42,371 nucleotides of DNA from Pseudomonadota bacterium. Its GTDB lineage: Bacteria; Pseudomonadota; Gammaproteobacteria; Ga0077536. Made by a program: the position numbers and the translations under genes. Of the stretch, positions 5,238-42,031 are shown piece after piece. The stretch is from NCBI GenBank assembly GCA_029977665.1, contig JAPOKK010000003.1:1-42371 (forward strand), written 5' to 3'. The number at the start of each line of letters is the position of its first letter. The stretch's first letter is position 1. The notes below the pieces were generated by a model. It did no database searches. It was not told the DNA's origin and saw only the letters and a list, made by a program, of their open reading frames with translations.

Positions 5238-6638
5238 TCATGCGACCATCTCCTCGGCGATGTGGCCGATGTTGCCCGCACCCAGCATCGCGACCACGTC
5301 GCCATCCTGCACCAGGCCGCCGACGACCTCGATGACCTTGCGCGGATCGTCGACGAACACCGGCTCGACCTGTCCGCGCGAGCGTATCGCGCGCGCCAGC
5401 GCGCGCCCGTCCGCCCCGGCGATGGGCGCTTCGCCGGCAGCGTAGACCTCGAGCAGCACGAGCAAGTCGGCACGTGAGAGGACATCGGCAAAATCATCGA
5501 GCAGGTCGCGCGTGCGCGTGTAGCGATGCGGCTGGAACACGACAACGAGGCGGCGTCCCGGCCAGCGGCGGCGAATGGTCGCGAGGACCGCGTCGAGTTC
5601 GCGCGGATGATGGCCGTAGTCGTCGACGAGCGTCACCGCGTGCCCACCGAGCGCGACCTCGGGGTGGATCTGGCAGCGCCGCGCGATGCCCTCGAAGCGC
5701 GCCAGCGCACGCCGGATCGCGGCGGGTGCGATACCGAGTTCGAGCGCCACGGCGATCGCCCCGAGCGCGTTCTGCACGTTGTGCTCGCCGGGCAGATTCA
5801 GCTCGAACCCGCCGCCCGTCTCGGCGAACCGGCAGCTGACCGAGAAATGCTCGCGGCCATCGACGTGGCGCAGGCCATGGCCGCGCACGTCCGCGTCCGC
5901 ATGAAAACCGTAAGTGATCACGCGTGCGCGAATCTCGGGGATCAGGGAGGCGGCATGCTCGTCGTCGAGACACACGCAGGCGACGCCGTAGAACGGCAGG
6001 CGCCGGAAGAACTCGACGAACGCCGACTTGAGCAGCGAGAAATCCCCCTCGTAGGTCGTCATGTGGTCGGCGTCGACATTGGTCAGCACGGCCATCAGCG
6101 GTTGCAGGAGCAGGAACGAACCGTCGCTCTCGTCCGCTTCGGCGACGAGATACTTGCCTTCGCCGAGCCGCGCATGGGCGTTGATGCTGCGCACCAGGCC
6201 GCCGACGACGAAGGTCGGATCGAGCTCGGCCTCGGCCAGGACCGCGGCGACCAGGCTCGTGGTAGTCGTCTTGCCGTGCGTACCGGCGATGGCGATGCCG
6301 TGGCGGAAACGCATCAGTTCGGCGAGCATCTCGGCGCGCGGCACGGTCGGGACGCGCCGCGAGCGCGCGGCCTCCAGCTCGACGTTGTCGGCCTTGACCG
6401 CGCTCGAGTAGACCACGACGTCGGCATCGGCGATGTTGTGCTCGGCATGGCCGATGACGACCTCGACGCCGGCGTCGCGTAGGTGCGCAGTGACCCGCGA
6501 TTCCGACGTGTCGGAGCCGGACACGCGGTAGCCGATGTTGCGCAGCACCTCGGCGATTCCGCTCATGCCGGCACCGCCCACGCCGATGAAGTGGATGTGC
6601 TCGACGCGATGCATCAGCTGGCGTTCGTCAGTCGGCAT
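5238..6638 (-). CDS. murC: UDP-N-acetylmuramate--L-alanine ligase
   Basis: Adds L-alanine to UDP-MurNAc, the first of the ATP-dependent Mur ligases. HIHFIGVGGAGMSGIAEVL near residue 12 forms the UDP-binding Rossmann start. GTHGKTTTTSL (about 120) is the ATP P-loop, and EADESDGSFL follows at about 180. A later NVQNALGAIAVA segment is also typical. I chose the ATG at 6638 because a GGAG ribosome site sits about nine bases upstream. The ATG at 6614 has no such site. This start overlaps murG by 11 bp and gives 466 residues. Confidence 0.96.
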   Translation of the reverse strand: MPTDERQLMHRVEHIHFIGVGGAGMSGIAEVLRNIGYRVSGSDTSESRVTAHLRDAGVEVVIGHAEHNIADADVVVYSSAVKADNVELEAARSRRVPTVPRAEMLAELMRFRHGIAIAGTHGKTTTTSLVAAVLAEAELDPTFVVGGLVRSINAHARLGEGKYLVAEADESDGSFLLLQPLMAVLTNVDADHMTTYEGDFSLLKSAFVEFFRRLPFYGVACVCLDDEHAASLIPEIRARVITYGFHADADVRGHGLRHVDGREHFSVSCRFAETGGGFELNLPGEHNVQNALGAIAVALELGIAPAAIRRALARFEGIARRCQIHPEVALGGHAVTLVDDYGHHPRELDAVLATIRRRWPGRRLVVVFQPHRYTRTRDLLDDFADVLSRADLLVLLEVYAAGEAPIAGADGRALARAIRSRGQVEPVFVDDPRKVIEVVGGLVQDGDVVAMLGAGNIGHIAEEMVA

Positions 6639-40642: not shown

Positions 40643-41698
40643 TCACGCCGGCGCCGGCGCGGCCCGCTCGAGCAACATCGCGTCGCCGTAGCTGAAGAAG
40701 CGGTAACCGGCCGCGACGGCATGCCGGTAGGCTGCCATGACCCGCTCGTGGCCGCCGAAGGCGCTGACCAGCATCAACAGCGTGGAGCGCGGCAGGTGAA
40801 AGTTGGTCAGCAGCGCGTCGATCACGCGGAAGCGGTAGCCGGGACGGATGAACAGCCGCGTCTCACCCTCGCTCGGTACGAGCGTGCCGTCGGCTGACGC
40901 GGCGGCGGCGCTTTCCAGCGCGCGCACGACCGTGGTGCCGATGGCGACGACCCGCCCACCGCGCGCCCGCGTCGCCGCGATCGCCTCGCACAGCGCGCCG
41001 GAGACGGTGTAACGCTCCGCATGCATGACGTGGCTGTCGATGTCCTCGCCGCGCACCGGCCGGAACGTACCCGCGCCGACGTGCAGCGTGAGCTTGCCGA
41101 TAGTGACGCCGGCCGCGGCGATCTCCGCGAGCAGCGCGTCGTCGAGATGCAGGCCCGCCGTCGGTGCGGCGACCGCGCCGGGAGTGCTGGCAAAAACCGT
41201 CTGGTAGCGCGCGCGATCGCCTGCCTCCGGCGCGCGGTCTATGTACGGAGGCAACGGCACCTCGCCGCGCGCCTCGAGCACCGCGTCGATGCTCGCGCCG
41301 GCCGGCGCAGCAACGGCGAGTTCGAACAGGTCGTCGTGCCGCGCACGCACCACCAGGCGATGGGCGTCATCGAGCAGGATCAGGCTGCCCGGGCGCGGTG
41401 ACTTACTCGCGCGCACGTGGGCCAGCGCCCGTTCGCGGTCGAGGACCCGTTCGATCAGGATCTCGACCGCACCACCGGTCTCCTTGCGACCGTGCAGGCG
41501 CGCCGGGATGACGCGGGTGTCGTTCAGCACCACGAGGTCACCGGCACGCAGCAATTGCGGCAGGTCGGCCACGCCACGATCGACACAGGCACCCTCCCCC
41601 GGCGGTACAACCAGCAGGCGCGCGGCACGCCGCGTGGGCAGGGGATGCTGCGCGATCTGTGCCTCGGGCAGGTGGTAATCGAAGTCGGCGAGTTGCAC
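40643..41698 (-). CDS. queA: S-adenosylmethionine:tRNA ribosyltransferase-isomerase
   Basis: Transfers the ribosyl part of SAM to preQ1-tRNA, making epoxyqueuosine. FDYHLPEAQIAQHPLPTRRAARLLV (about 7-31) is the diagnostic start. LVVLNDTRVIPARLHGRKETGG (about 54-75), APTAGLHLDD (about 177-186) and LHVGAGTFRPVRGEDIDSHVMHAE (about 204-227) are family blocks. Length 351. The start is a GTG at 41698 with AGGA about eight bases upstream. A 162-bp palindrome begins 13 bp upstream of the start codon and lies in the gene's leader. Confidence 0.97.
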   Translation of the reverse strand: MQLADFDYHLPEAQIAQHPLPTRRAARLLVVPPGEGACVDRGVADLPQLLRAGDLVVLNDTRVIPARLHGRKETGGAVEILIERVLDRERALAHVRASKSPRPGSLILLDDAHRLVVRARHDDLFELAVAAPAGASIDAVLEARGEVPLPPYIDRAPEAGDRARYQTVFASTPGAVAAPTAGLHLDDALLAEIAAAGVTIGKLTLHVGAGTFRPVRGEDIDSHVMHAERYTVSGALCEAIAATRARGGRVVAIGTTVVRALESAAAASADGTLVPSEGETRLFIRPGYRFRVIDALLTNFHLPRSTLLMLVSAFGGHERVMAAYRHAVAAGYRFFSYGDAMLLERAAPAPA

Positions 41699-41710
41699 CG
41701 CGCGATCCTA

Positions 41711-41872
41711 GCAGCCTGTCGAACTCAGGCAATCGTCGCGAGCAGGGTGGGAGGGCGCGTCCAGATGGACACGATTTCGAGGCGCATAGTGGTTGCACGT
41801 AACGAGAAATCGGGCTTATCCGCGCCGCCCTCCCGCCAGCGCAGTCGATTGTTCCGAAGTCCGACAGGCTGC
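41711..41872. repeat. 162-bp imperfect palindrome with 15-bp inverted ends
   Basis: The ends GCAGCCTGTCGAACT (41711-41725) and its inverted copy (41858-41872) match in 14 of 15 bases. Inside, further blocks pair in order: CAATCG (41730-41735) with 41846-41851, GGGAGGGC (41749-41756) with 41827-41834, and CGATTTC (41772-41778) with 41806-41812. All share one centre near 41792. The whole could fold into one long hairpin. It resembles a small non-autonomous transposable element or an extragenic palindrome. No transposase gene and no target duplication are visible. Confidence 0.65.
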
Positions 41873-41896
41873 CGGCAGACCTGCAACCTCCACCGG

Positions 41897-41925
41897 TCGA
41901 CCGTCCCGCGGTCATTCTCTATACT
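41897..41925 (+). promoter_or_regulatory. tRNA-Leu promoter
   Basis: TCGACC (41897-41902, four of six to TTGACA), a 17-bp spacer and TATACT (41920-41925, five of six) are followed by the GC-rich CGGCGCCC. Such a discriminator is typical of stringently controlled stable-RNA promoters. Transcription would start near 41932, about 13 bases before the mature tRNA. Confidence 0.6.
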
Positions 41926-41944: not shown

Positions 41945-42031
41945 GCCGGGATGGCGGAACTGGTAGACGCGCCAGACTCAAAATCTGGTATCCGAAAGGA
42001 TGTGGGGGTTCGATTCCCCCTCCCGGTACCA
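41945..42031 (+). tRNA. tRNA-Leu (anticodon CAA)
   Basis: Full cloverleaf of 87 nt. The acceptor GCCGGGA (41945-41951) pairs with TCCCGGT (42021-42027), followed by discriminator A and an encoded CCA. The anticodon stem CCAGA/TCTGG encloses the loop CTCAAAA, giving anticodon CAA (decodes UUG). A long variable arm follows, as expected for leucine tRNA, and the T arm reads GGGGGTTCGATTCCCCC. Confidence 0.97.

Follow-up and report, generated by a model that had tools for sequence, protein, structure and literature searches.

A decayed MITE with IS1182-type ends in the predicted promoter of queA, and the one-stranded hairpin of its family

The window considered here, by which we mean the whole stretch of 42,371 nucleotides of contig JAPOKK010000003.1 that was analysed, contains towards one end the gene queA and, divergent from it, a tRNA-Leu gene, with a long palindrome in the spacer between them. 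The features of this region are as follows.

40643-41698, minus strand: queA, 351 aa, GTG start
41705-41713, minus strand: predicted extended -10 of queA, TGCTAGGAT, formed anew by the end of the element together with the duplicated target
41708-41711, no strand: queA-side copy of the target duplication, CTAG; a single 4-mer in empty sites
41712-41729, plus strand: left terminal inverted repeat, CAGCCTGTCGAACTCAGG, 16/18 identical to the family consensus; same ends on the IS elements L164, L206 and L226
41730-41853, plus strand: structured core, with imperfect hairpin arms and conserved internal loops
41854-41871, minus strand: right terminal inverted repeat, CAGCCTGTCGGACTTCGG as read on the minus strand, 17/18
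41872-41875, no strand: second copy of the duplicated target, on the tRNA side, now decayed to CCGG, as located by alignment with the empty site of genome G001
41897-41925, plus strand: predicted tRNA-Leu promoter, TCGACC-17-TATACT, intact and divergent from queA
41945-42031, plus strand: tRNA-Leu (CAA)

An earlier, sequence-only reading had described a 162-bp palindromic element with inverted ends of 15 bases and further block pairs around a common centre. These observations hold: the 15-nt arms at 41711-41725 and 41858-41872 are 93% complementary, and GGTGGGAGGGCG/CGCCCTCCCGCC, which lie inside them, as well as the inner blocks are in register. The reported distance of 13 bp to the queA start codon agrees with the GTG at 41698. 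Folding of the minus-strand RNA, which had been proposed as a check, gave one long imperfect hairpin of -85.4 kcal/mol (z -6.6); the plus strand gives the same type of structure at -86.5 kcal/mol (z -6.5), and none of 200 shuffled sequences reached the stability of the 162-nt fold. The extent needs a small correction, since the palindrome does span 162 bp but its outermost G and C belong to flanking target duplications. The element proper covers 41712-41871 and is a palindrome of 160 bp with 18-bp inverted ends. The end consensus of its family is CAGCCTGTCGGACTTAGG, adjoined on both sides by the outer 4-mer CTAG. A core model (R1) scores 103.8 bits on the window copy (E 1e-26), this copy being itself among the sequences from which the model was built, and the strand favoured across the family corresponds to the plus strand of the window. 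The element carries no transposase gene, and no shared open frame was found in it, each frame being open in at most 11 of 48 copies. Its size, lack of such a gene and 18-bp terminal inverted repeats are those of a MITE. An Rfam scan of the window returned nothing over the element up to E 10, and two other, better-preserved copies had no match at gathering score; identity with a known Rfam RNA family was rejected on this absence of a covariance-model match.

The clearest view of how the element arrived comes from sites that lack it. The region upstream of queA was compared in the window genome and 29 relatives. The sister species G001, with a QueA that is 96% identical, has the same tRNA-Leu/queA spacer without the element, and so have other relatives. 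Read on the queA strand, the window has ggtctg-CCGG-(160 bp)-CTAG-gatcgcgcgGTG, and the empty sites read ggtctg-ATAC-catcgcgcgGTG in G001, ggtctg-CTAC-gatcgcgcccGTG in G007 and ctctg-ATAG-actcgcg in G014 and G020. When the window flanks are joined with one 4-mer, they align with G001 over 242 nt without gaps and with 94.6% identity. The two copies of the duplication in the window are unequal (CTAG versus CCGG). A second empty site is provided by CTAG...CAAG around the element in G092 versus CTAA in G228, and a third by CTAG...CCAG in G203 versus TGAG in G056; the comparison of G203 with G310 is less clear, and that of G014 with G020 at the L060 site is not clean. At three sites there is thus one 4-bp target, of which the duplicated copies are partly decayed. 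Because CTAG is palindromic, filled sites by themselves would look the same whether the target had been duplicated or the inverted repeat were simply longer, and the case for duplication therefore rests on the empty sites. The absence of the element in G001 could also reflect loss instead of the state before insertion.

Dispersed copies had been named as the observation that would favour a mobile repeat, and a search of the genome and its relatives found several. The own genome (4.24 Mb in 442 contigs) has three copies including that of the window. The second (C275:21539-21692) is 77% identical and scores 61.8 bits with R1, and it has an orthologue in G001, which belongs to the same genus; the third lies on C369 at about 6411-6578 and scores 95.7 bits. 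Of 58 sampled genomes, among them the own one, 14 had matches, with 15 in G010 and 14 in G032. The exact 22-mer of CTAG plus end occurs in at least 120 stretches of public genomes, and the hosts among these matches are mostly Gamma- and Betaproteobacteria and Verrucomicrobiota. The core model used for the distribution counts leaves out the element ends; it matches at least 89 of 369 sampled genomes (24%) and at least 72 of 272 genera of the class Gammaproteobacteria, and 48 of 398 genomes in a sample of the phylum. About 40 sampled genomes outside the Gammaproteobacteria have a core-model match, nearly all of them in one family. Most copies of the structured core are 165–169 bp long. Where flanks can be read, the ends are present on most core-model copies, in many cases as variants, and the 4-mer most often found outside them is CTAG. 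Two copies were searched for on plasmids without a match, and no paper was found in the literature with the exact end sequences.

The same ends are also found on complete insertion sequences, of which there are three: L164 (1650 bp, Verrucomicrobiia), L206 (about 1620 bp, Verrucomicrobia) and L226 (about 1570 bp), the last in G008, a genome of the window's bacterial family, with one stop in the transposase match. The transposases of L164 and L206 belong to the IS1182 family (NF033551, E 8e-91 and 1e-95; DDE_Tnp_1, DUF772), and that of L226, about 50% identical to that of L164, also matches NF033551. In G025, of the same bacterial family, a transposase remnant adjoins a perfect end. The core of the element was looked for inside these insertion sequences and not seen, so that a plain internal deletion of one of them would not yield the element. 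A search of the own genome (G000) for an IS1182 transposase found none, in an assembly of 442 contigs that can hide repeated elements; its copies therefore look stranded. Together with the divergence of the three own-genome copies, this suggests that the window copy is probably no longer mobile.

Several other elements share these ends. With a different interior there are elements of 125–126 bp (L110, L112, L126, L140), 190 bp (L122, L136, L202), 211 bp (L111, L145, L148, L198, L213, L219) and 40–60 bp (L129, L132, L147). By inspection, the core is absent from the 125–126-bp elements of Opitutaceae and from the 211-bp elements of one betaproteobacterium; in the 211-bp class each end forms a small hairpin by itself. 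Relatives of the element of 190 bp occur in Rhodoferax. Copies at L206 (3400-5090), L219 (6070-6310) and L067 (1426-1549) have palindromic flanks, as if inserted into the loop of a terminator-like hairpin. At L081, in G008, a 90-bp flank on one side of the element has at least 13 further perfect copies in that genome, and similar stretches in G056, G203 and G310; this is another dispersed repeat family.

The hairpin of the family shows a strand bias that the window copy no longer displays. Across 34 copies, 38 of 53 pairs have changed on both sides, and 93.9% of the cells are paired, versus 77.0% in shuffles and 32–44% with slid partners. For 31 matches from other genomes the values are 29 of 33 pairs and 97.6% versus 79.0%, in a model-fitted alignment that favours structure. 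Folding is biased to one strand in 32 of the 34 copies, by -13.6 kcal/mol on average, of which shuffled sequences explain -5.9; the bias exceeds the copy's own shuffled control in 30 of 34, and the same strand is favoured in 27 of 28 further loci. With pairs predicted on both strands, G-T outnumber A-C mismatches by 72 to 22 in the 34 copies; a model-fitted alignment gives 95 to 3. Copies are related by ancestry and do not amount to independent observations. Strand bias has been lost from the window copy (-87.5 versus -87.8) and from the C275 copy, and the C369 copy keeps it; loss in the first two fits decay. Judged from these alignments and predicted folds, members of the family measure about 168 bp, their pairs covary very strongly and one strand is favoured in folding. 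Covariation of the arms, which had been put forward as a mark of a regulatory RNA in front of queA, is thus real across the dispersed copies of a mobile family and does not extend to queA leaders. A hairpin kept by compensatory changes with a one-strand bias probably matters to the element itself, and the bias suggests a function of the hairpin, whether as RNA or as single-stranded DNA, within the life cycle of the element.

With respect to queA, 13 of the 30 sequences compared, the window included (L228-L230, L233, L235-L237, L240, L241, L252-L254 and, in the window, 41705-41713 on the minus strand), have a TAnnnT box that ends 6–7 nt ahead of the start codon and often follows a TG. This is where one would expect the extended -10 of a transcript without a leader. 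The conserved box suggests that the queA mRNA is leaderless in much of the window's bacterial family, and the insertion target was apparently the predicted -10 box of such a promoter, which was thereby cut in two and formed anew, as TGCTAGGAT, by the TG of the element and the duplicated target. Since the boxes in relatives place the start point at or near the GTG, the element probably lies upstream of the transcript and outside any leader, and the location in a queA leader given by the sequence-only reading is probably mistaken. Any effect on queA would run via lost upstream promoter context, not via a leader hairpin.

That reading had also offered a transcribed hairpin that controls queA, for instance an attenuator. 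Closeness to the start codon (13 bp) and a stable fold speak for it, but neither the sister species nor the other relatives compared have the element in front of queA, copies are dispersed elsewhere, the predicted queA start point lies downstream of it, the Rfam scans gave no match and the family's strand bias is gone from the window copy. Copies moreover show no preference in orientation relative to flanking genes, as assigned with a crude ORF picker, which argues against a role in leaders or 3'-UTRs. We consider such control very improbable, and a regulatory role of the window copy for queA is not supported. It is hardly credible, either, that the element is a palindrome of the REP type that owes its movement to a RAYT (HUH) transposase. 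Palindromic forms of 38–60 bp with the same ends do exist, and 4-base tags are described for REP families (PMC3733652), but the 4-bp target is duplicated and the transposases between or beside these ends, in a search that covered IS1182 DDE proteins only, are of that family.

A transposase could also have exchanged a stem-loop at the target for the element, as is done by IS1272, itself a member of the IS1182 family (PMC5678879, PMC4923244), and a few copies indeed have palindromic flanks. The excess of such flanks is small, with 3 clear cases among 83, and the three empty sites keep both flanks with only 4 bp between them, which contradicts replacement at these sites and makes it a most unlikely route. 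IS1272 shares the transposase family, but it is a complete insertion sequence that replaces target hairpins without duplication (PMC5678879), whereas here a 4-bp target is found between intact flanks; membership of the IS1272 type, with loss of the target stem-loop and no duplication, was rejected at the empty sites.

Elements of this kind are already known, since a table for Methanosarcina acetivorans lists IS1182-associated MITEs, with ISMac2 as partner, that are 160 bp long and have 4-bp repeats (PMC3852290). By description they resemble the window element in transposase family and approximate size, in having inverted ends and a 4-bp direct repeat, and in their dispersal; they differ in their archaeal host, and the passage describing them makes no mention of hairpin conservation. 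YPAL, or RU-2, of Yersinia (about 168 bp) is alike in length and in being palindromic, intergenic and mobile, and a covarying stem-loop is reported for it, as in the present family; it carries an open frame, which the present family lacks. YPAL target duplications are 3–26 bp (PMC2229807) versus 4 bp here, and identity with YPAL was rejected (best local score 20, shuffled mean 21.8). ERIC, or RU-1, is likewise a MITE-like long imperfect hairpin, of enterobacterial and Vibrio intergenic regions; it is set apart by description, with about 127 bp and TA at the termini (PMC2229807).

The window palindrome is a real, non-autonomous mobile element. The suggestion that it might be a MITE is upheld by the dispersed copies, by ends held in common with IS1182-family elements and by empty sites with a 4-bp target. 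The explanation that we prefer, with a probability of about 0.88, is insertion of an IS1182-transposase MITE into the -10 box of queA with duplication of a 4-bp target, the insertion now being old and decaying. An IS1182-family DDE transposase would have acted in trans on the 18-bp ends, and the ends, empty sites and IS partners show that 160 bp entered a CTAG-like 4-bp target, which was duplicated. The landing site would be the -10 box of the queA promoter, and the event is most simply placed after the lineage of the window genome had split from that of the sister species. The duplicated TA and the element's own TG would have rebuilt an extended -10, so that the loss to queA was probably confined to upstream context, with a promoter retained. 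The copy that remains would no longer move, and in the wider family the hairpin is probably important to the element, be it as RNA or as single-stranded DNA.

By itself the window copy is an ordinary decaying insertion, but the family to which it belongs is large, has a strongly conserved hairpin and has apparently not been catalogued. That family deserves a catalogue entry, in view of its spread, strong covariation and strand bias, with no Rfam entry and no match found in the literature. Its one-stranded structure deserves study, since a hairpin kept on one strand makes it testable why some bacterial MITEs, such as ERIC, YPAL and the present family, keep long structured palindromes. A tentative proposal, which we regard as possible but somewhat less than probable, is that the one-stranded hairpin of the 168-bp elements, with its fixed internal loops, serves their own mobilisation or the control of the IS1182 transposase. 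If true, these would be structured mobile elements, uncharacterised so far and widespread in Gammaproteobacteria and their relatives.
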